Of a stretch of 64,000 nt of DNA, positions 36,709 through 55,978 are shown one piece after another (positions within the stretch are counted from its first letter, which is position 1; each line of letters begins with the position of its first letter). The notes under the pieces are model-generated. The model had not been told where the DNA came from. It saw only the letters and a list, made by a program, of their open reading frames with translations, and did not search any database. This DNA is from an uncultured Flavobacteriaceae bacterium (GTDB lineage: Bacteria > Bacteroidota > Bacteroidia > Flavobacteriales > Flavobacteriaceae). The stretch covers positions 248,001 to 312,000 of the forward strand of contig CANNBV010000004.1 of assembly GCA_947502975.1 (NCBI GenBank), read 5' to 3'. Both the position numbers and the translations under genes were made by a program.

Positions 36709-36739
36709 GTAACAAGTGTACAGTTTGATGTAATAACTG
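36709..36739 (-). promoter_or_regulatory. LytTR-like direct repeat, weaker copy
   Basis: On the minus strand CAGTTATTAC (36730-36739) and CACTTGTTAC (36709-36718) start 21 bp apart. The two-HTH regulator gene follows. No -7 box lies at the 30-nt distance seen at the stronger sites, so this copy is less certain. Confidence 0.4.
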
Positions 36740-36776
36740 GTAAAATTTAGAGTATCCTATTCTGAATGAAGTACCA

Positions 36777-36899
36777 ATGATTAAAAATATATATTCATTA
36801 AGTTTAGAATCACATGCGACAATTGAGGAAACTATTGCCAGAAATGGAAAGAATATCGAAGAGATTCTAGAAGATAACTATAAAAGATTTTTTAAATAA
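36777..36899 (+). CDS. Possible 40-aa peptide gene
   Basis: An ATG-to-TAA frame of 40 residues, rich in Ile, Glu, Asn and Lys, with the C-terminal part (ETIARNGKNIEEILEDNYKR) likely helical. It sits alone between the two-HTH regulator and the first LytTR gene, both on the other strand. No promoter was recognised in front of it. It may be a real small protein or a chance frame in AT-rich DNA. Confidence 0.25.
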   Translation: MIKNIYSLSLESHATIEETIARNGKNIEEILEDNYKRFFK

Positions 36900-36930
36900 C
36901 AATAAAACTTAGACACAACTTATTATTGTA

Positions 36931-37686
36931 TTATTTAAGACCTAGGAATTTACTTAAGGCATCTTGACGACGTTTTGCAATTGGTAGCGCTTCCCTATTA
37001 GACATTTCGCAATACGCGCCTACAGCTTTATTTATTTTAACCACATGTTTTAAATTTACAATGTAGCTATTATGAATACGAAAAAACAGATTAGTATCTA
37101 AAGTACTTTCAAATTCCCCTAAATTCTTAGAAGCTGTAATTTTCTTGCTTTCAATGAGATAGAAAACAGTATATCTCCCATCAGATTTTAAATATATGAT
37201 ATCATCAAAATCAACAAATTCAATTTTATCCATTGATGGAATTGCCAGAAAATCAAATTGATAAGTTGCATCTAACCCCTTTTGAGCACGTAATATCTGT
37301 TCTTGACTAGTATAAGTGCTGTTTTCTATTTCCTTATACACCCTATTGACTGCGATAACTAATTCTTCAATATCTATAGGTTTTAAAATATAATCTACAG
37401 AATTATATTTAAAAGCCCTAACCGCATATTGGTCATAAGATGTTACAAATATCACTTTTAAATTGGAATGTGTTACTTCCTCTAAAACATCAAAACCCGT
37501 ACTATTATTTAATACTACATCTAAAAAAACCACATCTGGTTGTAAACTATTTATATAACGAACAGCTTCTTCTTTAGAACTAGCACTACCAACAATATGA
37601 ACTACGGGGCAATACTTTTCTAGAAAATGTTTTAATAAATCAATATTATTAACTTCATCATCTACAATTATAGCACTGATTTTCAC
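36931..37686 (-). CDS. LytTR-family response regulator (first of two)
   Basis: A 251-aa protein with a receiver domain (about 1-120) and a LytTR DNA-binding domain (about 150-250). The acidic pocket is VDDE (Asp9, Asp10), the phospho-acceptor is Asp56 in VVFLDVVLN, and the conserved Lys is in YILKPID. The LytTR part has FRIHNSYIVNLKHVVKI and ends LPIAKRRQDALSKFLGLK. It is closely similar in layout to the regulator at 53441-54184. The gene is divergent from the first giant repeat gene, whose promoter carries three LytTR-like half-sites, so that gene is the obvious target. A TAAATTTG -7 box lies at 37747-37754 on its strand. Confidence 0.93.
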   Translation of the reverse strand: MKISAIIVDDEVNNIDLLKHFLEKYCPVVHIVGSASSKEEAVRYINSLQPDVVFLDVVLNNSTGFDVLEEVTHSNLKVIFVTSYDQYAVRAFKYNSVDYILKPIDIEELVIAVNRVYKEIENSTYTSQEQILRAQKGLDATYQFDFLAIPSMDKIEFVDFDDIIYLKSDGRYTVFYLIESKKITASKNLGEFESTLDTNLFFRIHNSYIVNLKHVVKINKAVGAYCEMSNREALPIAKRRQDALSKFLGLK

Positions 37687-37902
37687 AATAACTTATTAGG
37701 TTTCTTAAAATTTTGTTCACTATTATCGATACACTGCTACATATTACAAATTTATGTACTAAAAAACAAAACGTTATACTGCACTTACTATTTCAGAACA
37801 TTTTTTATAACCAACCTCACTTCATGGTTTGAATTATCCATAAGTAACATATCCAGTTAAAATATTTAGATAAACACATCACATTAGTATATCGAAAATA
37901 AC

Positions 37903-37990
37903 CACTTACACCAAAATACGGACAGTTATTACCATATACGCTCAGTTATTACTTCTCATTATCTCTAACAGCAAATAGCACGTTACTTTG
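37903..37990 (+). promoter_or_regulatory. LytTR-type activator sites and promoter of the giant repeat locus
   Basis: Half-sites CACTTACACC (37903), CAGTTATTAC (37923) and CAGTTATTAC (37943) start exactly 20 bp apart. After the last one come 30 nt and then TTACTTTG (37983-37990) as the -7 element; there is no -33 TTG at the right place, as expected for an activated promoter. The ATG of the 923-aa protein is about 60 nt downstream. The rest of the 366-bp spacer (37687-37902) is AT-rich and shows nothing else but the -7 box of the LytTR gene on the other strand. Confidence 0.7.
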
Positions 37991-38052
37991 CCCCTTACGT
38001 ATTGGGATATTCCCTTTTAACAAAACTTAACATTTTAATTATCTAATTGATT

Positions 38053-40818
38053 ATGAGAAAAATAATTACACTATTGTTCTTTTTAAGCATTGGAGCAATA
38101 TCTGCTCAAGTGGGTGTAGGAACACCATTACCTGATGCATCTACCCAACTGGATATAGTTTCCAATAATAAAGGTGTATTAATTCCAAGAATTCCTTTAA
38201 CAAGTAGTACAGATATAGTTACAATTCCCAATCCAGCCAATAGTTTGCTTGTATTTAATACGAATACAGTAGCTAACGATATTACTCCAGGTTATCATTA
38301 TTGGGATGGTGCCAAATGGCAACGCATGACGAGTATGGACGAAGTAGTTACATTAATTCAATCTAATGAAACTATAACTAATCTTGTGGATAACGGTGAT
38401 GGTACGATTACCTATACCAATGAAGAAGGAATCGCTCAAACGGTAAACATCGCGGATATCATCACTCAGGAAATCCTTAATCAAGGAGATATCTTCAATG
38501 AGATTATTAATCTTATTGAAGCCAATACCGATGTCTTCCAAGATAATGGAGACGGTACATTCACACATACCTCAGCAGATGGTACAGTAGTAAACTTCAA
38601 TGCCAATACTACTACAATGATAAACAATGGCGATGGTACATATGTGTTGACCAATGCCAATGGCGATAGCATTACCATAGACGTCATTGCAGATATAGTA
38701 AATAACATTACTAACCAAGGTGACATCTTTAATGAGTTGATTACTGTAATCGACGCTAATTCTGATGTCTTCCAGGATAATGGAGACGGCACATTCACAC
38801 ATACCTCAGCAGATGGTACAGTAGTAAACTTTGATGCCAATACTACTACTATGGTAAACAATGGCGACGGTACCTATGTATTCACTAATGCCAATGGTGA
38901 TAGCATTACTATAGACGTCATTGCAGATATAGTAAATAACATTACTAACCAAGGTGACATCTTTAATGAGTTGATTACTGTAATCGACGCTAATTCTGAT
39001 GTCTTCCAGGATAATGGAGACGGCACATTCACACATACCTCAGCAGATGGTACAGTAGTAAACTTTGATGCCAATACTACTACTATGGTAAACAATGGCG
39101 ACGGTACCTATGTATTCACTAATGCCAATGGGGACAGTATCACTATCGACGTAATCGCAGATGTGGTCAACAACATTCAGAATCAAGGAGACATCTTCAA
39201 CGAGATTACTCAAGTGATTGATGCTGATGCCGACACGACTGACGATGCTTGGGCAAATGACAGCGCTAACAATAGAATCGAGCTCGGAACTCAGAGCGAC
39301 GGCACTACGGCACGACCTACCGGAACCGAATTTGTTGCCCTAGATAATGGAAATGTGGGAATTGGAACTCCCTCTCCTACAGAGACTTTGGAACTTGCAG
39401 GTTCCTTAAAAACGAAAAATCAAATAGCAGCGGATAACTACTCCGGGTTTTATTCGGGGACAACGCCCTTTGATGGATTCCCTTTTCCTCCCACTGCTAA
39501 CATGTTGTACTCGCAGGACAAAGAAACCTTTGATGGCCAAGGCCCCATAGGCTTTCTTACTACTTCGCCTGGGCGGTTAACTGCAACGGCCAACTCTAAT
39601 GGACCCATTTTGTCTATGCCAGGTCCTGATAGTGGAACTAGTATAGATCTCGATGGGATTGCTGGTTCTTTAAGCCTACGCAGTTATTCAGGAACAACAC
39701 AAATCCAAAGCTCCTTTCAAACATTTGGCTCAGGTCTAAGCTTTAGGTCAGAGGACTTTGGTAACAACAACTTTTCAATAGCTACAGTAAATGCAAATAG
39801 CCCGTTAAGTTTCTCGTTTAGGCGAGCAGGTGTAACAGAATCGTATGCCTTTCCAGAAGATAATGGAGATGCCGATCAGGTACTTACTACAGATGGTGCT
39901 GGGCAGCTTACATGGAGAGATCCTTCACTCTCTGCTATCAATGTGGAACCTTGGTTTGGTACTGATGACAATATGGGAGCTACCGACAATACCGAAGATA
40001 TTTATAGTCTAGGACGCGTGGGAATTGGAACAACACTACCATTAGGTGCTTTACATGTTGTATCTGAGAATTCAGATGATGCCCTTTTTGTACGGTCTCT
40101 TGGTGGCGATCCTACCAATGATATGGATATCGATTTGATAAGAACATACGGAACTGCAGCTTCTCCACAAATAATTAATCAAGATGGTACACGTTTAGGA
40201 GGGTTGAGATACAGAGGTTTCGTAGGATTGAACATTGATCCTCTTATCTCCATACCAATTTTTGCAGAAGTATCTGCAGAAACTGATGGAGTGCCTACAG
40301 CAACATCGGCGCCAGGGAAACTCATCTTTGAAACAACACCAACTGGAAGTACGATAGCTCAAGCCCGCATGACAATAAAAAATGATGGTAATGTAGGTAT
40401 CGGCACAACCGCTCCTTCAGAAAGATTAGAGGTAGCTGGCAACGTCTACGCTTCAAGCGGTGGTATGCTACTTACAGATACCAGTACCTATGCCGATTAT
40501 GTCTTTGAAGATTATGTGGATGGTATTTCCAAACTCAATAAGAATTATACGTTCAAGTCACTAGACGAAGTGGAGGCCTTTGTTAAAGAGTTCAAACATT
40601 TACCAGGCGTAACGGGAATCAAAGAACTAAAAAAGACTAACAACGGTTATGTGGTGAACATTACCAAACTTTCTGGTGAACTTTTGGAGAAAGTCGAAGA
40701 ACTCTTCCTGCATACCATTGCACAACAAAAAGAATTAGACGCCAGAGATGCCAAAATTCAAGCACTTGAAGCGCGCTTAGCCAAGATAGAGGCTATACTA
40801 AACCTAAACAATCAATAA
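38053..40818 (+). CDS. Giant surface repeat protein with C-terminal coiled coil (first)
   Basis: A 921-aa exported protein with a signal peptide (MRKIITLLFFLSIGAISAQ). The N-terminal module (about 20-100) has GVLIPRIPLT and GYHYWDGAKWQRM, a pattern common in Bacteroidota fibre-like proteins. Three repeats of 78 aa (234 bp each, starting at 38530, 38764, 38998) are rich in NGDGTF/YTHTSADGTVV. A long middle part of GIGT.PTE type follows, then a C-terminal FKSLDEVEAFVKEFKHLPGV and an alpha-helical coiled coil (ELLEKVEELFLHTIAQ...) to the end, as in tail-fibre-like or trimeric surface proteins. It has no T9SS sorting domain. It is first in the run controlled by the LytTR-type promoter. Confidence 0.85.
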   Translation: MRKIITLLFFLSIGAISAQVGVGTPLPDASTQLDIVSNNKGVLIPRIPLTSSTDIVTIPNPANSLLVFNTNTVANDITPGYHYWDGAKWQRMTSMDEVVTLIQSNETITNLVDNGDGTITYTNEEGIAQTVNIADIITQEILNQGDIFNEIINLIEANTDVFQDNGDGTFTHTSADGTVVNFNANTTTMINNGDGTYVLTNANGDSITIDVIADIVNNITNQGDIFNELITVIDANSDVFQDNGDGTFTHTSADGTVVNFDANTTTMVNNGDGTYVFTNANGDSITIDVIADIVNNITNQGDIFNELITVIDANSDVFQDNGDGTFTHTSADGTVVNFDANTTTMVNNGDGTYVFTNANGDSITIDVIADVVNNIQNQGDIFNEITQVIDADADTTDDAWANDSANNRIELGTQSDGTTARPTGTEFVALDNGNVGIGTPSPTETLELAGSLKTKNQIAADNYSGFYSGTTPFDGFPFPPTANMLYSQDKETFDGQGPIGFLTTSPGRLTATANSNGPILSMPGPDSGTSIDLDGIAGSLSLRSYSGTTQIQSSFQTFGSGLSFRSEDFGNNNFSIATVNANSPLSFSFRRAGVTESYAFPEDNGDADQVLTTDGAGQLTWRDPSLSAINVEPWFGTDDNMGATDNTEDIYSLGRVGIGTTLPLGALHVVSENSDDALFVRSLGGDPTNDMDIDLIRTYGTAASPQIINQDGTRLGGLRYRGFVGLNIDPLISIPIFAEVSAETDGVPTATSAPGKLIFETTPTGSTIAQARMTIKNDGNVGIGTTAPSERLEVAGNVYASSGGMLLTDTSTYADYVFEDYVDGISKLNKNYTFKSLDEVEAFVKEFKHLPGVTGIKELKKTNNGYVVNITKLSGELLEKVEELFLHTIAQQKELDARDAKIQALEARLAKIEAILNLNNQ
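38530..39231 (+). repeat. Three 234-bp direct repeats inside the first giant gene
   Basis: Units begin GATGTCTTCC at 38530, 38764 and 38998. Units 2 and 3 are almost identical over most of their length. The 78-aa product unit keeps its reading frame, so expansion or contraction would not break the gene. Confidence 0.95.
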
Positions 40819-40862
40819 AAATTGCCATGCAAATAACGAGAAACCATAAAAAAATGACAACA

Positions 40863-43800
40863 ATGAAATATTTCTATACATATTTAGCTATTGTACTTTT
40901 AGGTACAGGCTTTGTAAGTGCACAAACGGGAATTGGAACCAAGTCTCCCAATCCTGATGCCATGCTCGAAGTAAATGCTACCGACAAGGGATTACTTCTA
41001 CCCAGGATAGCATTGACAGGAACAGCTAACGCAGCACCTCTGGGTGGCCACGTAGCAGGGATGACAGTATACAATACAGCTACTACTGGCGATGTAAGGC
41101 CTGGATATTACATCAGTGATGGTGCCCAATGGTTGCGTATTACAAGTGTCGAGGATGTCATTGACTTGATAGATTCTACAGAGACAGTAACCAACTTGGT
41201 GGACAACGGCGACGGTACGGTGACCTACACCAACGAAGCGGGTACAGCCCAGACAGTAGATATCGCAGACATCATTACCCAGGAGATTCTCAACCAGGGT
41301 GATATCTTCAATGAGATCATCAATCTAATTGAAGCCAATACCGATGTCTTTGCGGATAATGGAGATGGTACATTTACACATACCTCAGCAGATGGCACTG
41401 TAGTAAACTTCGATGCCAATACAACCACTTTTGTAAACAACGGCGACGGTACCTATGTATTCACCAACGCCAATGGTGATAGTGTAACTGTAGATGTGAT
41501 CGCAGACGTGGTGAACAACATCACCAACCAGGGCGATATCTTCAACGAGATCATGCAGGTGATCGATGCCGAAGAGACCTTGACAGTACTTGATTCTTCA
41601 GTGAATGATAATGGGACACCAGCGGATACGACGGATGATTTCCAGGAACTGACCTATTTGGATGAAGATGGAGTGACCACAAGAATCAACCTGACCTCAA
41701 TCATTACCACTGGGGAGACGATCACCAACTTGGTGAACAACGGCGACGGTACGGTAACATACACCAACGAAGCAGGTACTGCTCAGACAGTAGATATCGC
41801 AGACATCATTACCCAGGAAATCCTCAACCAAGGGGACATCTTCAATGAGATCATCAATCTTATTGAAGCCAATACCGATGTCTTTGCGGATAATGGAGAT
41901 GGTACATTCACACATACCTCAGCAGATGGCACTGTAGTAAACTTCGATGCCAATACAACCACTTTTGTAAACAACGGCGACGGTACCTATGTATTCACCA
42001 ACGCCAATGGTGATAGTGTAACTGTAGATGTGATCGCAGACGTGGTGAACAACATCACCAACCAGGGCGATATCTTCAACGAGATCATGCAGGTGATCGA
42101 TGCCGAAGAGACCTTGACAGTACTTGATTCTTCAGTGAATGATAATGGGACACCAGCGGATACGACGGATGATTTCCAGGAACTGACCTATTTGGATGAA
42201 GATGGAGTGACCACAAGAATCAACCTGACCTCAATCATTACCACTGGGGAGACGATCACCAACTTGGTGAACAACGGCGACGGTACGGTAACATACACCA
42301 ACGAAGCAGGTACTGCTCAGACAGTAGATATCGCAGACATCATTACCCAGGAGATCCTCAACCAAGGGGACATCTTCAATGAGATCATCAATCTTATTGA
42401 AGCCAATACCGATGTCTTTGCGGACAATGGTGATGGTACATTCACACATACCTCAGCAGATGGCACGGTAGTAAACTTCGATGCCAATACCACCACTTTT
42501 GTAAACAACGGTGATGGTACCTATGTATTCACCAACGCCAATGGCGATAGCGTTACTGTAGATGTGATTGCCGATGTGGTGAACAACATCACCAACCAAG
42601 GGGATATCTTCAACGAGATCACTCAGGTGATCGATGCCAATGAGACCTTGACGGTACTTGATTCTTCAGTGAACGACAACGGGACACCAGCAGATACGAC
42701 AGATGATTTCCAGGAACTGACCTATTTGGATGAAGATGGCGTTGTCACAAGGATAAATCTATCTTCAATAATAGCAACAGTTGATACTGACGATCAGATA
42801 ATCACGGACTTTAGCGTGATTGGAAGCAGCCTAAGCCTGAGCCTTGAAGATGGTAACACAGCAACGGTATCATTGGGTGATATTGCTGCTGGAACTGACA
42901 CCAACACGACAAATGTGAGTCTTACAGAAGATGGCACGAACCTGATCCTTACGGACAGTGATAACAACACGGTGACGCTTGCCTTGTCAGATTTGGCTGG
43001 AACAGATGCAGATACCAACACGACAAACGTAAGTCTTACTGAAGATGGTACAAACCTGATTCTTACGGATAGCGACAACAACACCGTGACATTTCCATTG
43101 GCAGACCTTGCTGGAACAGCAGCGGATACTAACACTACTAACGTGAGCTTGACTGAGGACGGTACAAACCTGATCCTTACAGACAGTGATAACAACACGG
43201 TGACGCTTGCCTTGTCAGATTTAGCCGGAACAGATGCAGATAACAACACGACAAACGTGACATTGGCCACTTCGGGAACAGATTTAGTTCTTACAGATAG
43301 TGATAACAATACCGTAACTGTGGCTTTGGCTGACATTGCTGCTGGTGTGGATACAGATGATCAGACAATCACGGACTTTAGCGTGACTGGAAGTAACCTG
43401 AGCATTACCCTTGAAGATGGTAATACAGCAACGGTATCATTAGGAGATATTAGCGCTGGAACAGATACCAACACAACCAACGTTAGTTTGACAGAAGATG
43501 GTACAAACCTTATTCTTACAGATAGTGACAACAACACGGTGACGCTTGCCTTGGCTGATTTAGCTGGAACAGATGCAGATACCAACACGACCAACGTGAC
43601 ATTGGCCACTTCGGGAACGGATTTGGTCCTTACCGATAGTGATAACAATGCTGTTTCTGTAGCCCTGGCTGACATTGCCGCTGGTGTAGATACCGACGAC
43701 CAGACAATCACAGACTTTAGCGTAATAGGAAGTAACCTAAGCCTTACGCTGGAGGATGGCAACACGGCAACGGTATCATTAGGAGACATTAGTGCTGGAA

Positions 43801-44831
43801 CTGATACCAATACTACGAACGTAAGTCTTACGGAAGACGGTACAAACCTCATCCTAACGGACAGCGATAACAATACGGTAACGCTTCCATTAGCCGACTT
43901 GGCTGGATCGGCAGCAGATACTAACACCACAAATGTAAGTCTTACTGAAGATGGTACCAACCTGATACTTACGGATAGCGACAACAACACGGTAACACTT
44001 GCCTTGTCAGATTTGGCTGGAACAGATGCAGATACCAACACGACCAACGTAAGTCTTACAGAAGATGGTACAAACCTGATTCTTACAGATAGTGATAACA
44101 ACACGGTAACGCTTGCCTTAGCTGATTTAGCAGGAACGGATGCAGATACCAACACAACTAACAGTACGTTAGCCACAGTAGGTTCAAATCTTGTTCTAAC
44201 AGACAGTGATAACAACACGGTTTCAGTTGCTTTGGCGGATATTGCTTCGGGCGTTGATACCGATGATCAAACAGTAACCGACTTCAGTGTTTTAGGAAAC
44301 AACCTGAGCATTACGCTAGAAGATGGCAATACGGCAACAGTTGCATTAGCAGATATTGCTGCAGGCGTGAATACTGATGACCAGAACATCACAGACTTCA
44401 GCGTAGCTGGAGGCAACCTGAACATCACCATCGAAGATGGGAATACGCAAACTGTGCCATTAACATCGATTGCACCTACTTACACAGGTGGTAACCTGAT
44501 CAATGTTACAGGGACAACCATCAGCAAAGTGAACAACATTCAGGTGGTAGCCAATCCAACTGCTAGTCTAGATCTAGGAAGCATTCCGGAAGGAATCTAT
44601 CGTTTCGATATGAGCGTGCAAAACGTCATTAATCTTCCTGCGCCAACCAATCCAGTGGATGGGGGCGTGTATAACTTCCACTTTGTGGGAGCCAACAACG
44701 GAACCGTGACCTTCCCTGCCAGTTTTGTGAGAGAAGACGGGGTTAGCTCAGTAGGGAGTGTACTTGTTCCTGCCGGACAAATGGTGACCTTCTACTATTA
44801 TCAAGGGACTTTTTACACCATGGAGCAATAG
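40863..44831 (+). CDS. Giant surface repeat protein (second)
   Basis: About 1322 aa from the ATG at 40863 (MKYFYTYLAIVLLGTGFVSAQ signal peptide); ATGs at 40827 and 40854 extend it without a signal-peptide reason. The N-terminal module (LLLPRIALTG, GYYISDGAQWLRI) is homologous to that of the upstream gene. Three 178-aa repeats (534 bp each) follow to about 42780. Then come about fifteen 38-aa modules (114 bp each) of two kinds, DTNTTNVSLTEDGTNLILTD and DTDDQTITDFSV. The end has VNLPAPTNPVDGGVYNFHF-like strands. The Asp/Asn-rich turns could bind calcium; this is inference. No T9SS domain is visible, so the export route after the inner membrane is unclear. Confidence 0.85.
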   Translation: MKYFYTYLAIVLLGTGFVSAQTGIGTKSPNPDAMLEVNATDKGLLLPRIALTGTANAAPLGGHVAGMTVYNTATTGDVRPGYYISDGAQWLRITSVEDVIDLIDSTETVTNLVDNGDGTVTYTNEAGTAQTVDIADIITQEILNQGDIFNEIINLIEANTDVFADNGDGTFTHTSADGTVVNFDANTTTFVNNGDGTYVFTNANGDSVTVDVIADVVNNITNQGDIFNEIMQVIDAEETLTVLDSSVNDNGTPADTTDDFQELTYLDEDGVTTRINLTSIITTGETITNLVNNGDGTVTYTNEAGTAQTVDIADIITQEILNQGDIFNEIINLIEANTDVFADNGDGTFTHTSADGTVVNFDANTTTFVNNGDGTYVFTNANGDSVTVDVIADVVNNITNQGDIFNEIMQVIDAEETLTVLDSSVNDNGTPADTTDDFQELTYLDEDGVTTRINLTSIITTGETITNLVNNGDGTVTYTNEAGTAQTVDIADIITQEILNQGDIFNEIINLIEANTDVFADNGDGTFTHTSADGTVVNFDANTTTFVNNGDGTYVFTNANGDSVTVDVIADVVNNITNQGDIFNEITQVIDANETLTVLDSSVNDNGTPADTTDDFQELTYLDEDGVVTRINLSSIIATVDTDDQIITDFSVIGSSLSLSLEDGNTATVSLGDIAAGTDTNTTNVSLTEDGTNLILTDSDNNTVTLALSDLAGTDADTNTTNVSLTEDGTNLILTDSDNNTVTFPLADLAGTAADTNTTNVSLTEDGTNLILTDSDNNTVTLALSDLAGTDADNNTTNVTLATSGTDLVLTDSDNNTVTVALADIAAGVDTDDQTITDFSVTGSNLSITLEDGNTATVSLGDISAGTDTNTTNVSLTEDGTNLILTDSDNNTVTLALADLAGTDADTNTTNVTLATSGTDLVLTDSDNNAVSVALADIAAGVDTDDQTITDFSVIGSNLSLTLEDGNTATVSLGDISAGTDTNTTNVSLTEDGTNLILTDSDNNTVTLPLADLAGSAADTNTTNVSLTEDGTNLILTDSDNNTVTLALSDLAGTDADTNTTNVSLTEDGTNLILTDSDNNTVTLALADLAGTDADTNTTNSTLATVGSNLVLTDSDNNTVSVALADIASGVDTDDQTVTDFSVLGNNLSITLEDGNTATVALADIAAGVNTDDQNITDFSVAGGNLNITIEDGNTQTVPLTSIAPTYTGGNLINVTGTTISKVNNIQVVANPTASLDLGSIPEGIYRFDMSVQNVINLPAPTNPVDGGVYNFHFVGANNGTVTFPASFVREDGVSSVGSVLVPAGQMVTFYYYQGTFYTMEQ
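41188..42780 (+). repeat. Three 534-bp direct repeats inside the second giant gene
   Basis: Equivalent points recur at 41220, 41754 and 42288 (period 534 bp). Units 1 and 2 are near-identical over several hundred bases, and unit 3 differs by scattered silent changes. Each contains the NGDGT module also present in the first giant gene, so the two genes share material. Confidence 0.93.
42780..44480 (+). repeat. About fifteen 114-bp coding modules
   Basis: A 114-bp (38-aa) period is kept across two alternating module types, for example at 42909, 43023 and 43137. Protein sequence is more conserved than DNA; synonymous sites vary, unlike in the 534-bp units. Confidence 0.9.
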
Positions 44832-44851
44832 TTAGACGATAAAAAAACTAC

Positions 44852-44912
44852 GGGCGAGAGACATTGAAATCTCGGATAATAATAATAATAATAGACAAGA
44901 TTCTTCTCGCCC
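44852..44912 (+). terminator. Hairpin with a long loop and TAA microsatellite between the second giant gene and the BspA-like gene
   Basis: GGGCGAGA (44852-44859) pairs with TCTCGCCC (44905-44912), followed by TTTTT. The 45-nt loop contains GAGA...TCTC and an (ATA)n-type run of about six triplets. It may act as a partial terminator that lowers expression of downstream genes. Confidence 0.6.
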
Positions 44913-44929
44913 TTTTTAAAACTATAGAT

Positions 44930-46522: not shown

Positions 46523-46539
46523 CTAAAAAAATTTAAAAC

Positions 46540-47790
46540 ATGATGAAAACATATATATACTTATTGCTCTTGATACCATGTATGGCATGGTCTCAAACGG
46601 TAAATCTTGGAGACCTCTATATTCTAGCTGGAACACAGTTTTCCACCATAGGTGATCTAGATAATAAACCTACAGGAACCTTTATTAATGATGGCGAAGC
46701 CTTTATTTATGCCAACTTTAATAACGATGGTGTTGTAGATTTCGATGAAGAAGGCTTTATCCGTTTTGAGGGCTCTGCAATACAGCAGATTAGTGGTGGC
46801 AATATTTGCTATTTCTATAATGTATTGTTTGATAATGATGCGAGTAGTACGGCATCTTTCGAATTGAGCAATGAGATAAGCATTGCCAATGAAGCTCAGT
46901 TTGACGAAGGCATCATAAACAATGATGACTTTGGTGGCTTAGTGATCTTTGAAGATAATGCGTACCATACAGGCACTTACGACGGAAGTCATGTAAACGG
47001 GAGCGTTCAGAAAAATGGGGATGATAGTTTTACCTATCCCATCGGTGATTCAGAATTCTTTAGGTATGCCGCCATTTCTGCACCCGACAACGTAAACGAT
47101 GTTTTTAGTGCTAAGTATGTCTTCGAGAATCCAGTAGGTCAGACCGTCAACGGTGAGACACCAACGGCTAATGCTGCTGGCGTAATTACATTATTAGACA
47201 CTGCCGAGTTTTGGACTATAACACGAGATGCGGGTAATAGCGATGTGCTATTAACCCTTACCTGGGAAGAAAGTACAACAACTCCCGAAACCATCGCAGC
47301 CAATCCACAAAGTGCCATCCATATTGCACGCTGGGATGAAGCCCAACAAATTTGGGTCGATGAAGGCGGTGTGGTAGATATAGATAACAAGACGGTAACA
47401 ACGCCTCTTCGACTGGAAAACTATGGCATTTTTACTCTTGCTAGAGTAAATGAAAGCTTGATTATCCCAGAGGGCAACTTAGTAATATACAATGGGGTAA
47501 CACCCAACGGAGATGGTAAGAATGACTACTTCTTTATAGATGATATTACCAAACTAGCCAATAATAATGTGAAAGTTTACAACCGCTGGGGTGTAAAAGT
47601 GTTTGAAACGGATAATTACGACACCAATGGCAATGTGTTTAATGGCGATTCGCAAGGTAGACTAACTGTAAACGAAGACGAACTACTGCCTACAGGAACT
47701 TATTTCTATGTCATTGAATTCGATTATAACAACAACGGGAATACTGGTCGCTATAAAAAGGCAGGCTATCTCTATTTAACTACAGAATAA
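46540..47790 (+). CDS. Secreted protein with gliding-motility-associated (T9SS type B) C-terminal domain
   Basis: A 416-aa exported protein with a signal peptide (MKTYIYLLLLIPCMAWSQ from the ATG at 46543, or one Met earlier). The middle is beta-rich and unassigned. The last 100 residues hold the CHU_C/type B sorting domain: YNGVTPNGDGKNDYF (about 320-334), NVKVYNRWGVKVFE and the ending KKAGYLYLTTE. Type B cargo proteins are exported by T9SS and typically need a PorP/SprF protein, which is encoded by the next gene 5 bp downstream. This supports a functional pair. Confidence 0.9.
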   Translation: MMKTYIYLLLLIPCMAWSQTVNLGDLYILAGTQFSTIGDLDNKPTGTFINDGEAFIYANFNNDGVVDFDEEGFIRFEGSAIQQISGGNICYFYNVLFDNDASSTASFELSNEISIANEAQFDEGIINNDDFGGLVIFEDNAYHTGTYDGSHVNGSVQKNGDDSFTYPIGDSEFFRYAAISAPDNVNDVFSAKYVFENPVGQTVNGETPTANAAGVITLLDTAEFWTITRDAGNSDVLLTLTWEESTTTPETIAANPQSAIHIARWDEAQQIWVDEGGVVDIDNKTVTTPLRLENYGIFTLARVNESLIIPEGNLVIYNGVTPNGDGKNDYFFIDDITKLANNNVKVYNRWGVKVFETDNYDTNGNVFNGDSQGRLTVNEDELLPTGTYFYVIEFDYNNNGNTGRYKKAGYLYLTTE

Positions 47791-47795
47791 AGAAC

Positions 47796-48758
47796 ATGAA
47801 AAAATATATAATAAAAAGAATCAAGGACACCTCTGTAGTCCAGCTCTATTTGGGACTGACTATGCTGTTGCTCTGTTTGACTTCCTCATATGCACAACAG
47901 GATTCGCAATACACCCAATATATGTATAACACGCAAACTATTAACCCTGCATATGTTGGATCTAGAGGGGCACTATCCATTACTTCGCTATACCGTAACC
48001 AATGGGTAGGATTAGAAGGTGCTCCAGAGACTTTAAACTTTAGTTTGAATAAACCCATTGGCGAATCAGAACAAATTGGATTTGGGTTGAGCTTTTATAA
48101 AGATAAAATTGGTCCTGCCGATGAAAGTCTCATTACTATGGATTTTTCATATACAATTCAAATGAGTGATGAAGTCAAACTAGCATTTGGAATTAAAGGA
48201 GGTATTAATCTATTAAACGTAGATTATTCAAAATTAAACATTTTTGATCCTAGTGATGTGCTTCAGCAAAACAATATAGACAACAGATTATCGCCAGTAA
48301 TTGGAGGTGGATTATTTCTGCATAATAATAGAACTTGGTATGTTGGTTTATCTGTTCCCAATTTATTGGAGACTACCCACTTTGATGACACAACCGTATC
48401 TAATGCTTCGGAAAAAGCGGCATTTTATACCACTGCAGGCTATGTATTTGATCTTAGCTCCAATGTTAAGTTTAAACCCGCAGTATTAGGAAAGTTTGTA
48501 TCTGGCTCTCCGACTGGGGTTGATGCTTCTGGTAACTTTCTTATCAATGAGAAATTTACCATCGGTGCCGCGTATCGTTTTGATGCAGCCATTAGTGCAC
48601 TAGCCGGATTCCAAGTATCTGATAAAATTTTCATTGGCTACGCGTACGATTATGGTGTGCAAGAATTAGTGAACTACAATTCTGGTTCTCATGAAATATT
48701 CTTGCGCTTCGAGCTGGGTAAACTGGCCAAACGATTAATTACTCCTAGATTCTTTTAA
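47796..48758 (+). CDS. PorP/SprF-family outer-membrane protein
   Basis: A 320-aa protein with a signal segment (about 15-34, ending SSYAQ) and the family signature QQDSQYTQYMYNTQTINPAYVGSRG (spans about 35-59). Then come barrel strands (FGLSFYKDKIGP, KLAFGIKGGINLL, FIGYAYDYG) and a final LRFELGKL. PorP/SprF proteins occur next to genes for T9SS type B cargo and are required for attachment or export of that cargo in known cases. Here the cargo gene is directly upstream. The first 14 residues (MKKYIIKRIKDTS) are basic and unusual; a shorter start is possible. Confidence 0.92.
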   Translation: MKKYIIKRIKDTSVVQLYLGLTMLLLCLTSSYAQQDSQYTQYMYNTQTINPAYVGSRGALSITSLYRNQWVGLEGAPETLNFSLNKPIGESEQIGFGLSFYKDKIGPADESLITMDFSYTIQMSDEVKLAFGIKGGINLLNVDYSKLNIFDPSDVLQQNNIDNRLSPVIGGGLFLHNNRTWYVGLSVPNLLETTHFDDTTVSNASEKAAFYTTAGYVFDLSSNVKFKPAVLGKFVSGSPTGVDASGNFLINEKFTIGAAYRFDAAISALAGFQVSDKIFIGYAYDYGVQELVNYNSGSHEIFLRFELGKLAKRLITPRFF

Positions 48759-48768
48759 AACACAAATT

Positions 48769-50655
48769 ATGAAGTACATAAAACACATGCTTATTTGTAC
48801 AGCTTTTTGCTTTACCGGCGCCATAATGGCACAACAAAGTCAAATTAAAAAAGCGAACCAAAAATTTAAAGATTTGGCTTATATAGATGCCATAAGTATT
48901 TATGAAAATGTAGCGAACAAAGGTTATGTAGATGCAGGGTTATACCAAAAAATAGGAGACGCCTATTACTTTAATGCCGATTATGATAAAGCCGCTGTTT
49001 GGTACGGAAAATTATTTGATTTACAGCAAACCAACGACCTTGTTTATAATTTTAGATATGGGCAATCCTTGAAAGCTTCAGGGAATTATAAGAAAGCAGA
49101 CCAATACTTAGGCTCCTTTTTTAAAGCACAAGGGTTAAACTACCAAAACTCTGATATTTATTTAAATGACATAGAAAAGAATGCTAGTAAATACATAGTA
49201 AATACCTCAAAGCACAGTACTAAATATTCTGATTATCCAGCATTTTACAGGTCTGATACACTTTATGTCACTACAGCAGATTTGGCTGGAGAACTAAGCC
49301 CTTGGAATAATGAACCTACATCAAATGTATATCGGACAGAAAACACCGAACTTAAAGCTTTACAACCAGATATTAACACAAAATTTAATGAAGGCTCTAT
49401 TGCTATTACCAAAAAGGGAGATGCTATTTATTTTACACGTAATGATTACACGAATAAAAAGCTAGGTAAAGATAAAAATAGAATCACACGTTTAAAGCTA
49501 TACCGTATTCGTAAAGCGGATTCTTTATGGACCGATGAAGAAGAATTACCTTTTAGTAACAGGCATTATTCTGTTGGGCATCCTGCATTAAGCCCTGATA
49601 ATAAAACATTATACTTTGTTAGTGATATGCCAGGGAATGATGGTAAAGGTGGAACAGATATTTATAAAGTGACTATTAATGATGATGGCACATTCGGAAC
49701 AGCCACTAATCTTGCTTCGCTTAACACATTTGGTGATGAAATGTTTCCCTTTGTAGCCAATGATGGCACCTTATATTTTTCATCTGACGGACAAACATCC
49801 AATTTAGGAGGACTAGATGTGTATAGTGCATCCTTAAACCAAGATGGAAGCTATGGAAGTGTTGAAAACTTGGGAAGACCTATTAACAGCCCAACAGACG
49901 ATTTTGCATTTGTGATAAATGACAAGACCGAAGAGGGTTTTTTATCAAGTAATAGATATGGTGCCGTAAGCGATGATATTTATGCTTTTTCAAAAAACGA
50001 AAATTACAAAGCGCCATGTAACCTTAAACTAAAAGGTGTTGTTAGAAATAAAGAAACTGGAGAGGTTTTAAAGGATGTATTAATAACACTAGTAGGCCCA
50101 AACAATACACCAAAAGATCAAAAGTTATTTGAGTCTGGTTTGTATGATTATAATAATGTGGATTGTAATGAAGTAAAATTTATTAGAGCAGAAAAAAGCG
50201 GGTATTTAACCAATGAAGAAATTATAAACGCCACGGATGGTATTTTTAATAAAGACATCCTTTTAGACCCTAGAGTTATAAATACTGATGTTGGTAGTGA
50301 TATTGGGAAGTATCTAAACCCTATTTATTTTGATTTAGACAAGCATAACATACGTCCTGATGCACAAATAGAATTACAGAAGTTAGTTCAAATACTTCTA
50401 GAAAAGCCAAGTATAAAGATTGATGTGCGTTCACATACCGATAGCCGTGCCAATGATGCTTACAATATGGCATTGTCAAATCGTAGAGCGAAATCCGTTA
50501 TTGATTATTTGCTGAAAAGTGGTATTAACCGCAATCGTTTAACAGGACGAGGCTATGGCGAAAGCCAATTGGTGAATGGCTGTTCTAATGGTGTGGAATG
50601 TATGGAGGCCTCACATCAGGAAAATAGAAGAAGTGAATTTATCATAATTAAGTAA
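48769..50655 (+). CDS. OmpA-family protein with TPR and propeller (PorE-like)
   Basis: A 628-aa exported protein with signal peptide (to about 22), a TPR region (about 25-130), a PD40-type propeller (about 190-420, with HPALSPDNKTLYFVSDMPG and GTLYFSSDGQT), a carboxypeptidase-regulatory-like domain (about 425-500) and a C-terminal OmpA peptidoglycan-binding domain (about 515-628, with SHTDSRANDAYNMALSNRRA). This order is that of PorE, which anchors T9SS to peptidoglycan; many paralogues follow PorP/SprF genes. It is the last gene of the cargo-PorP-OmpA trio, with a 10-bp gap. Confidence 0.88.
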   Translation: MKYIKHMLICTAFCFTGAIMAQQSQIKKANQKFKDLAYIDAISIYENVANKGYVDAGLYQKIGDAYYFNADYDKAAVWYGKLFDLQQTNDLVYNFRYGQSLKASGNYKKADQYLGSFFKAQGLNYQNSDIYLNDIEKNASKYIVNTSKHSTKYSDYPAFYRSDTLYVTTADLAGELSPWNNEPTSNVYRTENTELKALQPDINTKFNEGSIAITKKGDAIYFTRNDYTNKKLGKDKNRITRLKLYRIRKADSLWTDEEELPFSNRHYSVGHPALSPDNKTLYFVSDMPGNDGKGGTDIYKVTINDDGTFGTATNLASLNTFGDEMFPFVANDGTLYFSSDGQTSNLGGLDVYSASLNQDGSYGSVENLGRPINSPTDDFAFVINDKTEEGFLSSNRYGAVSDDIYAFSKNENYKAPCNLKLKGVVRNKETGEVLKDVLITLVGPNNTPKDQKLFESGLYDYNNVDCNEVKFIRAEKSGYLTNEEIINATDGIFNKDILLDPRVINTDVGSDIGKYLNPIYFDLDKHNIRPDAQIELQKLVQILLEKPSIKIDVRSHTDSRANDAYNMALSNRRAKSVIDYLLKSGINRNRLTGRGYGESQLVNGCSNGVECMEASHQENRRSEFIIIK

Positions 50656-50664
50656 TTAATCTCC

Positions 50665-50732
50665 CACTTATTACAAAATAAGGACAGTTATTACTTGATA
50701 TTTTTTCAATATGTGTAATATACTGTCCTTTA
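50665..50732 (+). promoter_or_regulatory. LytTR-type sites and promoter of the OmpA gene at 50762
   Basis: CACTTATTAC (50665-50674) and CAGTTATTAC (50685-50694) start 20 bp apart. Exactly 30 nt after the second comes GTCCTTTA (50725-50732), aligned to TTACTTTG of the giant-gene promoter. The ATG is 30 bp further. A 15-bp inverted repeat (AAGGACAGTTATTAC with GTAATATACTGTCCTT, one bulge) joins the second half-site with the -7 region. Confidence 0.7.
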
Positions 50733-52253: not shown

Positions 52254-52919
52254 ATGTTTGACAAAGTTCTGGTATCTGATGATTTAGATGTCATAAATGA
52301 AGGTGTATTTTCTGTACTCAAAGAATTGAATATTAAATATGTTGATAAAACACAATATTGTGATGATTCATACCTGAAAATTAAAAAGGCAATTTTTGAC
52401 AATGACCCTTTTCAACTTTTAATTACGGATTTATCTTTTAAAGCTGATTACAGAGAGCAAAAGTTTCCTAATGGTGAAAGCTTAATAAAAGTTTTGAGAA
52501 AAGAACTTATACCCATAAAAATTATTGTTTTTTCAGTGGAGCATAAACTTCAAAGAATACAATCTCTATTCTATAAGAACGATATTAATGCTTATGTATG
52601 TAAAGGAAGATCGGGATTAAAAGAATTAGCTATAGCTATAAATAAAGTAAATTCAGGAAAACATTATTTATCGAAAAGCATAGAAAAGGCATTGGATAGC
52701 AGATTAATTTTAAATATAGATGATTTTGATATTGAATTACTGCAACAATTATCTAAAGGGTTTTCTCAAGAGCAAATAAGTCGCAACTTTAAGAATAATA
52801 ATACTAATCCTAGTAGCTTAAGTTCTATTGAAAAACATATAAACAGGTTAAAAGTTCAGTTTCAAGCAAATAACACTGTCCATCTTATTTCAATAGCTAA
52901 AGATGTAGGACTAATTTAA
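52254..52919 (+). CDS. NarL/LuxR-type response regulator, orphaned
   Basis: A 221-aa protein with an N-terminal receiver domain (about 1-130: SDDLDVINEG pocket, phospho-acceptor Asp in LLITDLSFK near 60, Lys in AYVCKGRSG) and a C-terminal LuxR-type HTH (about 155-210: FDIELLQQLSKGFSQEQISRNF, then SSIEKHINRLKVQF). The spacing fits the NarL class used with TPR histidine kinases in Bacteroidota. Its kinase seems to be lost (remnant 52092-52250), so it may answer to the kinase at 56155 or act without phosphorylation. Target genes are unknown. Confidence 0.85.
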   Translation: MFDKVLVSDDLDVINEGVFSVLKELNIKYVDKTQYCDDSYLKIKKAIFDNDPFQLLITDLSFKADYREQKFPNGESLIKVLRKELIPIKIIVFSVEHKLQRIQSLFYKNDINAYVCKGRSGLKELAIAINKVNSGKHYLSKSIEKALDSRLILNIDDFDIELLQQLSKGFSQEQISRNFKNNNTNPSSLSSIEKHINRLKVQFQANNTVHLISIAKDVGLI

Positions 52920-53413: not shown

Positions 53414-53440
53414 ATACAAAAAGGCAATATGAATAGGTAA

Positions 53441-54184
53441 TTAGAGTTTAATCTTTAAAATTTTGTTAAGCTCTTCTTGACGGCGTTTTGCAATAGGTAG
53501 AGATTTATTGTTAGATAATTCACAATAATTTCCTCCTGACTTGTTAATGTTTGTCATCATTTTGAGATTAACTATATACCTGTGATGAATTCTAAAAAAT
53601 TGTTTAGAGTTGAGTTGTTTCTCGTATTCTCCCAAATTCCGGCTAGCTATTTTTGTAGTGCCATTGGTTAAATGAAAAATGGTATATCTACCATCAGCTT
53701 CAGCATAAATTATATAATCCATATGAATTAAGTCTATTCTAGCCGTAGAAGGGATAGCAATAAGGTGTGCATGATATTCTTCGTGATCACCTTCATCCTT
53801 TTCATAATTATTTTGTCTTAAAATATTAAAAATAGCTTTGTTAGCTGCCATTTTTAGCTCATCAACTTTAATAGGCTTAGTAATAAAAGCTGTCACATTA
53901 TAATTTACAGCTTTTACACCATATTCGGTATGTGAACTTATAAATACTATCTCACTTTTTGCATTCTGTATGCTATCTAAAAATTGAAATGCATCCTCTT
54001 TTCCTAAATTAATATCAAGTAATAAAAGTTTTGGCTCAAACTTTATAAATTGTCTAATAGCCTCATCAACATTTGTGGCTGTAGCAATCACCTCAATATT
54101 CGGACAGTATCTTGATAAATAAATTTTTAATAACTCGATATTATCTTTTTCATCATCAACTATTAGGGCTTTGTAGGTATTCAT
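53441..54184 (-). CDS. LytTR-family response regulator (second of two)
   Basis: A 247-aa protein with receiver domain (about 1-120; VDDE with Asp10/Asp11, phospho-acceptor Asp57 in LLLLDINLG, Lys in FITKPIKVDEL) and LytTR domain (about 145-245; FRIHHRYIVNLKMMTNI and LPIAKRRQEELNKILKIK). It is a close paralogue of the regulator at 36931-37686; recognition-domain residues are very similar, so the two may share binding sites. About 500 nt upstream on its strand is a LytTR-type promoter (54685-54750), suggesting autoregulation or cross-regulation through a long leader. Confidence 0.93.
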   Translation of the reverse strand: MNTYKALIVDDEKDNIELLKIYLSRYCPNIEVIATATNVDEAIRQFIKFEPKLLLLDINLGKEDAFQFLDSIQNAKSEIVFISSHTEYGVKAVNYNVTAFITKPIKVDELKMAANKAIFNILRQNNYEKDEGDHEEYHAHLIAIPSTARIDLIHMDYIIYAEADGRYTIFHLTNGTTKIASRNLGEYEKQLNSKQFFRIHHRYIVNLKMMTNINKSGGNYCELSNNKSLPIAKRRQEELNKILKIKL

Positions 54185-54684
54185 GAAATGTTTGTTAATT
54201 AGTTATATAAGTGTAAGTTTTTACTTTACTGTAATTGTTCTCATTTTATTAAAGGAGCACTGCCTGTATCCTAACACTGGGATTAGTGATAACAACTTCA
54301 CAATAAAAAACAAAATGTTGTAGAAGTTAATTTGATTAGTAATAATTAGTGCCCCTAAAATTTCTTTATTAATAAAAAGACCTTTTAGTGCATTGTGGCG
54401 CGTTTTGATTATTACTGTAGAAGTTGTCTTAGAATGAAGTATCTCCTTTTCTGTCTGAAAAGATGATATTTTAGATAATAAAAAACCCTCCAAAGAGCTT
54501 ATTAAAAAGCTATTCCACGGGCAACTGTTTCTTGTTTTCAAATTCACAAATGACTTGGGGCATAAGACATTGATCCACACCTTGATTAAACAATAAAATT
54601 ATTCAGGTTAAACTATTACTGATACATAAAATAAGCATTCTAAAAAGTGGTTAGGTTGATGTGAATATAGAAATGTTTTGTAAC
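54185..54684 (-). other. Long leader of the second LytTR gene with a weak 119-codon frame
   Basis: This 500-bp stretch lies between the LytTR-type promoter at 54685-54750 and the regulator start. It holds a GTG-initiated minus-strand frame (54221-54580, 119 aa, one hydrophobic segment near the C-terminus, no recognisable domain), whose composition is unlike its neighbours. It may be a leader with regulatory function, a small membrane protein or decayed DNA. No convincing terminator was seen. Confidence 0.3.
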
Positions 54685-54750
54685 CAAAAATACTGTTCAG
54701 ATATAAGTGTGCTTATTTTCTAATAACTGGGCTAAAATTGATAATAAGTG
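54685..54750 (-). promoter_or_regulatory. LytTR-type sites and promoter facing the second LytTR gene
   Basis: On the minus strand CACTTATTAT (54741-54750) and CAGTTATTAG (54720-54729) start 21 bp apart. A full -7 match TATTTTTG (54685-54692) follows after 27 nt, 3 nt less than at the other sites. Transcription would run into the leader of the LytTR regulator. Confidence 0.6.
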
Positions 54751-54924
54751 GTTTTTAGCACCACAATTAATATATGATAAGAAATACAAAAAGGTAATAC
54801 CAAATTTCTATCCTAAATGGCCCAGAAAAAAAATTAATATTAACTTAAATTAGTAGTAGTAGTGATCTAAATTAAATAAGTATTAGTTCATATAATCTCT
54901 AAATAATAGTTTGAATAACTATGA

Positions 54925-55003
54925 TTAAAAAAAGGTGAATAAAAATTCACCTTTTTAGCCCCAAATTTACCATACAACTTAACCTACTAATTACTGCTAT
55001 GGT
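54925..55003 (-). ncRNA. Probable small RNA B (about 80 nt)
   Basis: A short transcription unit is defined by the LytTR-type promoter at 55008-55076 and the perfect terminator at 54929-54956. The predicted RNA begins near 55003. Around its start TACCATA (54998-55004) can pair with TATGGTA (54968-54974). A linker with GGGGC follows, then a 12-bp terminator stem with an AAAA loop. The only frame is eight codons (MVNLGLKR), probably meaningless. No protein gene lies between promoter and terminator. Expression is not shown here. Confidence 0.5.
54929..54956. terminator. Perfect bidirectional terminator
   Basis: AAAAAGGTGAAT / ATTCACCTTTTT, 12 bp without mismatch, AAAA loop. No protein gene ends near it on either strand, so it points to a short RNA. 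Confidence 0.85.
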
Positions 55004-55007
55004 ATTG

Positions 55008-55076
55008 TAAATGTAAATACAAATTTAAATAAATCAATACGCCAAGTAACAACTGGGAACAATTCGAGCATAAGTG
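55008..55076 (-). promoter_or_regulatory. LytTR-type sites and promoter of small RNA B
   Basis: On the minus strand CACTTATGCT (55067-55076) and CAGTTGTTAC (55046-55055) start 21 bp apart; exactly 30 nt later comes TACATTTA (55008-55015). The upstream half-site is degenerate at its 3' end. Confidence 0.6.
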
Positions 55077-55184
55077 GTGAAATCTCGTTATACATTGTAT
55101 TTGAGTATTAATATTTAATCTAAAATCTTCATCAAAAAATTGTAAAATGATATAAGTTGCGACGTAAAACACATTAATAGTATG

Positions 55185-55279
55185 CTAAACAAACAAAGAG
55201 ACAGACTCATGAGTAGTTGTCTGCCTCTTTTCTTAGATAAACATAGAAAATCAATCCTCTCTCTCTGATTTTCTTGTAG
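55185..55279 (-). ncRNA. Probable small RNA A (about 90 nt)
   Basis: A second short unit lies between the LytTR-type promoter at 55284-55371 and the terminator at 55195-55230. The predicted RNA starts near 55279 and forms a 9-bp perfect hairpin AGAAAATCA / TGATTTTCT (55245-55274) with a purine-rich 12-nt loop (GAGAGAGAGGAT). A 14-nt linker follows, then the terminator stem with a U-rich tail. The exposed purine loop could pair with pyrimidine-rich mRNA regions; that is speculation. No coding frame of note is present. Confidence 0.55.
55195..55230. terminator. Bidirectional terminator of small RNA A
   Basis: AAAGAGACAGAC / GTCTGCCTCTTT, 11 of 12 pairs, 12-nt loop, T-rich on both sides. No adjacent protein gene uses it. 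Confidence 0.8.
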
Positions 55280-55283
55280 ACCA

Positions 55284-55371
55284 CAAACTTATGCAAACCT
55301 TTATATTAATTATAATTAGAAGTAATAAATGGGACAAATAGATTACCCGTGAATAAATAATGTAATAAGTG
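55284..55371 (-). promoter_or_regulatory. LytTR-type sites and promoter of small RNA A
   Basis: On the minus strand CACTTATTAC (55362-55371), a weak CACGGGTAAT (55342-55351) and CATTTATTAC (55322-55331) start at exact 20-bp steps. Exactly 30 nt later comes TAAGTTTG (55284-55291), a full -7 match. The surrounding stretch to 55489 shows nothing else. Confidence 0.6.
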
Positions 55372-55489
55372 TTTTTTCGTAACTATCTTTTCTACAATCT
55401 AATAAAAAAGCTGAATTTTAACCCATAATCCAACATAGATAGTTCTTTTATAATATGTACTGCATTCAATTGCTATTTGCGTATTCTGT

Positions 55490-55906
55490 TTAAATTACAG
55501 CTATACTATTTTCAACTTTCTCAGGTAGCGTTTTTTCAAGCATTTCTTTTAAAGTATTTAGGCTTAAAATCTCAATATTTTTAATATTAAACGTAAATAT
55601 ATTTCCATCGTTTAAAACGATAACTAGAGTTGTTTTTAAAAACTGAATCTTATCAATGTTCTCCAGTTTTATAGATTGAGGTTTATTGCCTTTAAACTTT
55701 AAGCGGATGCTATATTTATTATACTTAACATAATTATTGAATAATAAAGGTTTTCCGAAACTTATAAGAACAGTCAATAAAAATACTATCACATATACTG
55801 AGATACCTATATCTTCCTTTGTTAATATCAACAACAAAACCAAAGGAATTGAAATAGCCATAACTAAATAATATCGATTTACTTTGTCTATATATATTTT
55901 TTCCAT
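55490..55906 (-). CDS. Small membrane protein with PH-like domain, under LytTR-type control
   Basis: A 138-aa protein with two hydrophobic segments (about 13-27 and 33-50) followed by a soluble part (KYSIRLKFKGNKPQSIKLENIDKIQF, then LVIVLNDGNIFTFNIKNIEI). Its strand order and short C-terminal helix resemble a bacterial PH-like domain. The -7 box of its promoter (55911-55918) ends just before the ATG at 55906, so the mRNA would be leaderless, or translation starts at Met16 (55861, MAISIPLVLLL). No named family was recognised. Confidence 0.65.
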   Translation of the reverse strand: MEKIYIDKVNRYYLVMAISIPLVLLLILTKEDIGISVYVIVFLLTVLISFGKPLLFNNYVKYNKYSIRLKFKGNKPQSIKLENIDKIQFLKTTLVIVLNDGNIFTFNIKNIEILSLNTLKEMLEKTLPEKVENSIAVI

Positions 55907-55910
55907 GCAT

Positions 55911-55978
55911 CAAAATTAAAAACAACACGTCAATACCGTAAATGTTTTGTAATAACTGGGAGATATAGATAATAAACG
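55911..55978 (-). promoter_or_regulatory. LytTR-type sites and promoter of the small membrane protein gene
   Basis: On the minus strand CGTTTATTAT (55969-55978) and CAGTTATTAC (55949-55958) start 20 bp apart; exactly 30 nt later comes TAATTTTG (55911-55918), a full -7 match. Confidence 0.65.

Follow-up and report, generated by a model that had tools for sequence, protein, structure and literature searches.

A fixed promoter layout shared by surface-protein genes and a candidate small RNA, and its association with LytTR response regulators, in an uncultured Flavobacteriaceae bacterium

The stretch analysed here, called the window, is 64,000 nt of DNA from an uncultured Flavobacteriaceae bacterium (assembly GCA_947502975.1, contig CANNBV010000004.1, forward strand 248,001–312,000; GTDB lineage Bacteria; Bacteroidota; Bacteroidia; Flavobacteriales; Flavobacteriaceae). 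Its region 36709–55978, singled out earlier in a sequence-only reading, holds two LytTR response regulators and a repeated promoter layout of paired direct half-sites, which is common to surface-protein genes, a LuxR-like gene and units without a gene, one of which seems to encode a small RNA. The features of the region and its flank are as follows.

36671–36739 (−), promoter: perfect pair of half-sites at 36739 and 36718 (step 21), weak box GAAATTAA, upstream of the LuxR-like gene (start near 36651)
36931–37686 (−), LytTR response regulator: Pfam Response_reg and LytTR domains, a paralogue 41% identical to the 53441–54184 protein
37923–37990 (+), promoter: half-sites at 37923 and 37943 (step 20), box TTACTTTG at 30 nt, upstream of adhesin gene 38053
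38053–50655 (+), surface-protein cluster downstream of the 37923 promoter: two adhesin-like (by inspection) proteins rich in repeats, a DUF285 protein, a CHU_C protein, PorP/SprF and an OmpA/PorE-like protein
50665–50732 (+), promoter: half-sites at 50665 and 50685 (step 20), box GTCCTTTA at 30 nt, upstream of OmpA/TSP3 gene 50762
53441–54184 (−), LytTR response regulator: Pfam Response_reg and LytTR domains
54685–54750 (−), triple site: half-sites at 54750, 54729 and 54709, with TATTTTTG 27 nt after the second (54729)
54924–55003 (−), putative small RNA: hairpin ACCAUAG...UAUGGU, single-stranded AAAUUUGGGGC and an intrinsic terminator, predicted +1 at 55003
55008–55076 (−), putative small-RNA promoter: half-sites at 55076 (weak) and 55055 (step 21), box TACATTTA at 30 nt
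55284–55371 (−), geneless unit: half-sites 40 bp from each other at 55371 and 55331, box TAAGTTTG at 30 nt, followed by what may be two hairpins (fold z just −1.27)
55911–55978 (−), promoter: half-sites at 55978 (weak) and 55958 (step 20), box TAATTTTG at 30 nt, upstream of EbsA-like gene 55490–55906
56155–58269 (+), TPR sensor histidine kinase: HisKA and HATPase_c domains, likely partner of the LytTR regulators

The half-sites conform to CA(C/G)TT(A/G)TTAC (CASTTRTTAC), follow one another at 20–21 bp steps and usually lie exactly 30 nt from a −7 box resembling TAnnTTTG. Read directly, the window has seven places with this layout, one of them weak and one with 27 nt; four of the places (37923+, 50665+, 55978− and 55076−) combine a pair at step 20–21 with a box 30 nt after the last 10-mer. 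Boxes TAATTTTG and TAAGTTTG match TAnnTTTG at 6/6 positions, TTACTTTG and TACATTTA at 5/6 and GTCCTTTA at 3/6. Seven window matches at six places reached at least 14 bits (scores 20.7–40.9, against 0.025 per Markov shuffle) with a composite matrix that was trained partly on the window sites themselves; the 55331 unit scored under that threshold. The sequence-only reading had described shared half-sites at 20- or 21-bp steps before the genes at 38053, 50762, 54184 and 55906 and before two geneless units, a description confirmed by direct reading, which placed half-sites and boxes as stated; the 55331 unit departs from it in that its good partner lies 40 bp off (55371) with a degenerate half-site in between. 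Direct reading also recovered the distances it gave, exactly 30 nt to the −7 box in five of six cases and 27 nt in the sixth, and the weaker seventh place at 36709–36739, where a perfect pair (36739−/36718−) is followed by the weak box GAAATTAA.

Whether such a layout is at background frequency across the genome had been left as a check, and it is not: a strict scan (step 20, at most one mismatch) found six places in the window's own genome, two of them overlapping in a triple, and none in a backwards-read control. In 11 congeners the same scan found one place in all, within an open reading frame (ORF). With three mismatches allowed, counts were at or near background (67 versus 65 at step 20, 149 versus 107 at step 21). 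At least four further layout places lie beyond the window, so that the putative regulon extends past it (here and below, handles beginning with C, G and L denote contigs, genomes and loci):

C1:471.5k, box TTACTTGC, preceding a protein with a type IX sorting domain
C1:1155.7k, box TAACATTA, preceding a gene without a Pfam match
C6:64.0k, box TAGATTTA at 30 nt, no gene close downstream
C7:134.9k, box TATATTTG at 30 nt, no gene close downstream

Half-site pairs were compared across 30 genomes, comprising the window's own, 14 others with LytTR relatives and 15 controls. When intergenic pairs were picked by their half-sites alone, 15 of 26 had at least 4/6 of TAnnTTTG at an offset of exactly 30, the next best offset reaching 5/26; among pairs within ORFs, a box at 30 nt occurred in none of nine. 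The binomial P for the 30-nt rule, 3e-15, is too small, since orthologous pairs were counted separately and one chance case is included (L126, from control genome G025, which overlaps a gene start and has its 'box' inside the gene). These sites display a strict promoter grammar in their sequence, namely two direct half-sites at a step of 20–21 bp and 30 nt to a predicted sigma-A −7 box.

Both LytTR proteins belong to the AlgR/AgrA/LytR family of response regulators, with receiver (PF00072) and LytTR (PF04397) domains above cut-off, in keeping with the earlier claim of two LytTR regulators within the same 20 kb. The best relative of the 53441–54184 protein in the 11 congeners is 31% identical, and a protein scan of the genome contigs with it returned no confirmed relative. 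In a sample of 397 Flavobacteriaceae genomes, the 36931–37686 protein has a match at E ≤ 1e-44 in 155; the congeners are only partly present in this sample, G006 being among them with a 37% match. A sequence model of 25 sites matched 13 of the 397 genomes at E ≤ 1e-4, six of which had supplied training sites and seven of which had not, and all 13 were LytTR-positive (P 1.1e-3 for the seven outside the training set). At E ≤ 0.3 the same promoter model matches 351 of 397 genomes; these matches are mostly noise and were not used. The sites are also linked to LytTR genes: 14 genomes that had supplied no training sites gave 47 listed matches at E ≤ 1e-3, and 9 of these lie no more than 10 kb from a LytTR gene on the list, against 0.6 expected, with LytTR positions taken from the matches listed and four genomes without an entered position counted as misses.

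Within the LytTR family, the motif goes with one clade of response regulators in the sequences compared. A quick tree of 66 proteins (from L066–L125 and genes of L355–L364) has a branch with 99% SH-aLRT (Shimodaira–Hasegawa-like approximate likelihood-ratio test) support that divides 26 proteins from 40. All ten LytTR genes with a site within ~1.5 kb are among the 26 (P 2.5e-5, relatedness ignored), and both window regulators fall in that clade; the gene for the 53441–54184 protein has the 54750 triple site 0.5 kb upstream. This triple site may drive a ~0.5-kb leader of the gene, and a terminator scan that missed the small RNA's own terminator found none between the two. Control of the layout-bearing units by LytTR regulators, as the earlier reading proposed for the cluster, is well supported at the level of sequence by the clade association, by the linkage outside the model genomes and by the match to published repeats. 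In that match, the repeat format given earlier for LytTR domains, about nine bases at a spacing of about 12 bp, agrees with the sites in repeat length, gap and sequence: the window promoters have two ~9-bp direct repeats with gaps of 11–12 bp (11–13 bp defines LytTR direct-repeat promoters) just upstream of the core promoter, at 30 nt in most cases and 27 nt at 54750.

The layout also precedes counterpart genes in another genus, where G250 and G401 keep the half-sites, the step and the 30 nt. G017, of the same genus but with no LytTR match at E ≤ 1e-44, has no step-20 pair with at most one mismatch. Orthologues of the OmpA gene 50762 (52–53% identity) have promoters at L158 9786− and L157 9962+, adhesin-type counterparts (like 38053 or 40827) at L155 8257− and L154 11866+, and orthologues of the EbsA-like gene (42–44% identity) at L156 9274+ and L371 8713−. 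For the LuxR-like gene, sites were found in L155 (11434−), ahead of a gene with 25% identity, and in L154 (8685+), ahead of the counterpart; in these genomes there is also a site before a regulator beside LytTR. Across 25 aligned sites the half-sites are constant and the spacers mostly unrelated, those of G401 and G250 being alike. The kinase at 56155–58269 is the likely partner of the LytTR regulators because LytTR genes in L160 and L363 have related kinases next to them.

Several results weigh against LytTR control. A step-20 pair with at most one mismatch occurs in just five of the 14 other genomes with LytTR relatives and is absent from nine, among them G216, G200, G310, G031 and G145 despite orthologues of 44–50% identity (counts: own genome 6, G401 6, G250 3, G026 3, G107 1, G228 1 and control G025 2). 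The pairs of G228 and G107 (L128) have no box at 30 nt, and the control with two pairs, one of 15, has one overlapping a gene start and the other inside an ORF, both chance cases by their context. Step 21 is noisier, 5 of its 18 places falling in 4 of the 15 control genomes. In the tree, 16 of the 26 clade members have no site within ~1.5 kb, and the site labels need seven changes against a shuffled mean of 9.5, with 8 of 500 shuffles as low; some labels come from matrix-training loci, five of the ten from training genomes (own genome twice, G401, G250 and G026), and ten tree genes come from loci fetched for their promoter-model matches. The small-RNA promoters described below add two further points: ancestral copies combine this layout with a different half-site, which means that the layout by itself is no proof of action by these two LytTR proteins, and in LytTR loci the ancestral half-site is no more frequent than in shuffles.

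The geneless unit 55003–54924 (−) seems to encode a small RNA of ~78 nt with two hairpins, which the sequence-only reading had not anticipated; that it is transcribed is suggested by its promoter, structure and terminator together. Similar units occur in three other genera (several in tandem in G107, one in G026 and one in G401 after the EbsA-like gene), and a covariance model built from seven sequences matches about four fifths of the family genomes (314 of 397 at E ≤ 0.01), many of which have two or more copies ~200–250 bp apart. In a phylum sample of 395 genomes, searched with fast filters at E ≤ 1e-4, 33 match and all 33 belong to the window's family. Nine of 15 base pairs changed on both sides, with four covariation measures above all 500 shuffles and one above 498, in an alignment that was fitted to the model and is therefore biased towards the structure. 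Rfam 15 gave nothing above threshold at the window unit or at the L156, L160 and L162 units of three relatives, and sub-threshold matches only at eight loci with further copies. At least 117 named stretches contain the exact core, and the 80 listed come mostly from Flavobacteriaceae genera; one record labelled as outside the family, L264, titled as a Lentimicrobium metagenome-assembled genome, holds the core and may be a mis-binned contig.

Besides the window unit, the genome has a tandem pair of copies at C1:300167–300495, preceded by a purF-like gene. This is the common setting: of 119 loci (L204–L322, two from the window's own genome), 99 have a purF-like gene upstream and 88 have a superoxide dismutase gene downstream on the opposite strand, and 57 of 118 exact-core loci hold at least two copies. 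In G595 (C4:179085–180131) five copies recur every ~242 bp and four of them score equally, which may point to a recent tandem amplification. At L362 9394 (−), 4.5 kb from a LytTR gene 47% like the window's, the transcript of a unit would contain TAGGTTAGGTTAGGTTAG, which resembles an expanded form of the conserved loop word of the small RNA.

Of 180 unique upstream regions of these ancestral copies, 173 match the box at 5/6 positions or better; these were aligned on the box and the seven poor-box regions dropped (an earlier alignment of 51 regions had held two unrelated ones, L199). The alignment reveals two half-sites, GCNTTTNATCNAA, 20 bp apart, with T at −57 (94%) and −37 (95%) and C at −52 (75%) and −32 (73%) from the box start; C at −40 and TT at −37/−36 are in register with the corresponding bases of CASTTRTTAC. 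In 135 of 177 cases 4 nt separate the end of the box from ACCAU. A published study (PMC9723704) puts the −7 box at −12 to −5 relative to the transcription start, which, with this gap, predicts that the RNA starts exactly at ACCAU. A search of 60 LytTR loci for the ancestral half-site gave seven matches of at least 14, against 7.7 in shuffles. The sole match above shuffles, at 21.9, is an ancestral-type repeat pair in the window's own genome (L088 953, +), with box TACTTTTG, near another LytTR gene. Since the ancestral tandem copies share the geometry and register and carry half-site GCNTTTNATCNAA, the window small RNA looks like a paralogue with switched promoter specificity, captured by the adhesin regulon. 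We lean slightly towards the fuller form of this reading, in which a family-wide, multi-copy RNA of purF/sodA context has promoters of LytTR-type geometry and, after a switch of half-site, one paralogue was rewired here into a type IX surface-protein regulon. A variant half-site, (C)CGTTTRTTAC, occurs in the same layout at L172 14716− and 17555− and at L365 7887+ (G134), one such promoter preceding a gene 27% like the OmpA gene 50762. This variant might represent a form midway between the two classes of half-site.

If LytTR gene 53441–54184 has a long leader, it contains GCCCCAAG (54554–54561, −), complementary to the small-RNA linker. The predicted pairing, −15.6 kcal/mol, is equalled by none of 300 shuffles; GCCCCAA was found in the upstream 600 bases of none of 14 other LytTR genes, two of which had shorter or shifted words. 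A link between small RNA and regulator leader is a weak lead.

Taken as a whole, the explanation we consider probable is a chain from kinase through LytTR regulators and paired half-sites to surface-protein genes and a small RNA. The sensor kinase, probably that at 56155–58269, would phosphorylate the regulators 53441–54184 and 36931–37686, and phosphorylated LytTR dimers would occupy both half-sites on one DNA face and recruit RNA polymerase to sigma-A promoters. The type IX-linked surface-protein operon, the OmpA protein, other exported proteins and the ~78-nt small RNA would thereby be co-activated. The small RNA, as a paralogue of an ancestral, family-wide and often tandem RNA whose promoter has the same geometry and another half-site, could tie surface-protein expression to post-transcriptional control of its targets.

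Another regulator, such as the protein at 35854 (LuxR-like) or that at 52254 (response-regulator-like), might instead bind the repeats, the LytTR genes being mere neighbours. The LuxR-like gene does carry a site in its own promoter, and the ancestral small-RNA promoters share the geometry, yet LytTR loci lack their half-site; against this stand the association of the motif with one LytTR clade, its linkage to LytTR genes in other genomes and its agreement in sequence, length and gap with published LytTR repeats, and we regard a different regulator as unlikely. A mobile intergenic repeat with chance promoter-like sequence, recently copied to give these units, would account for several copies lying close together in one cluster; the reading is disfavoured, and to us scarcely credible, given the counterpart promoters in another genus and, across the 25 aligned sites, the conservation of half-sites and distances with mostly unrelated spacers.

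The unit at 55003–54924 could also be a leader or a tiny-peptide gene (MVDLGQK... in ancestral form, from the AUG of the 3′ arm) rather than a regulatory RNA. The AUG is conserved in the 3′ arm, and 177 of 180 named-record members have the same AUG–linker spacing, a regularity that the exact-core fetch pattern forces on at least one copy each. In the covariance model, however, AUGGU and UUUG are separated by 4 nt rather than 3 in 11 of 59 members, a change of frame that leaves the linker in place; open frames from the 3′-arm AUG range from 8 to more than 24 codons; and a terminator hairpin follows, whose stem covaries. We judge a leader or peptide gene improbable, slightly more so than a different regulator. 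The coding reading of the unit was rejected on the frame shifts.

With LytTR control of both surface proteins and a small RNA as the preferred reading, the arrangement recalls the agr system of Staphylococcus aureus, in which a LytTR regulator drives protein genes and the regulatory RNA RNAIII. We know of no sequence relation between RNAIII and the window small RNA, which differs in being a ~78-nt, two-hairpin RNA with family-wide tandem copies in another half-site class. LytTR regulatory systems (LRS), composed of a regulator and a membrane inhibitor, likewise have a LytTR domain and direct repeats; the window regulators differ in their receiver domains and the nearby sensor kinase, and no regulator–inhibitor operon was seen, neither gene having an adjacent same-strand operon partner in the ORF list. 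Closer is activation by HdrR, BrsR and AgrA, which also involves two 9-bp direct repeats 11–12 bp apart just upstream of the promoter: the BrsR repeats are ACCACTTAT-12bp-ACCGCTTAT (PMC6193735), the first almost equal to the window half-site CCCACTTAT/ACCACTTAT, and the promoter-proximal repeats of AgrA are centred near −60 (PMC4227749). The present sites differ from these in the fixed 30 nt to a Bacteroidota −7 box, in many unlinked targets and in having surface-protein and small-RNA targets.

Among flavobacterial RNAs, 89 transcripts named Rfp1–89, some of them conserved, are described for Flavobacterium psychrophilum (PMC9723704). Rfp18 is likewise a conserved flavobacterial small RNA, with predicted targets that include proteases and an adhesin; compared by description only, it differs in a third stem-loop, against two hairpins here (PMC9723704). 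Flavo-1 RNA (RF01705), another small structured flavobacterial RNA, matches elsewhere in the window (21489–21574, +; 47.3 bits against a threshold of 42) and not at the small-RNA unit, to which that match is unrelated. A tRNA gene (58385–58458, −; 71.6 bits) lies downstream of the kinase gene.

A literature search, judged by title and the start of the abstract, returned no paper describing this regulon or small RNA. LytTR activation itself is already known (PMC6193735, PMC4227749). Three things appear to be new from the sequences: a strict distance rule, an RNA spread across the family and the half-site switch that would have brought a copy of it into a surface-protein regulon. The exact 30-nt rule from half-site to box makes such regulons predictable from sequence; to our knowledge, few activators of Bacteroidota sigma-A promoters have been mapped. 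Two half-site classes within one geometry make a change in LytTR-type specificity directly testable, and the rewired paralogue, if the reading is true, would be a natural series for the joint evolution of LytTR specificity and small-RNA networks.

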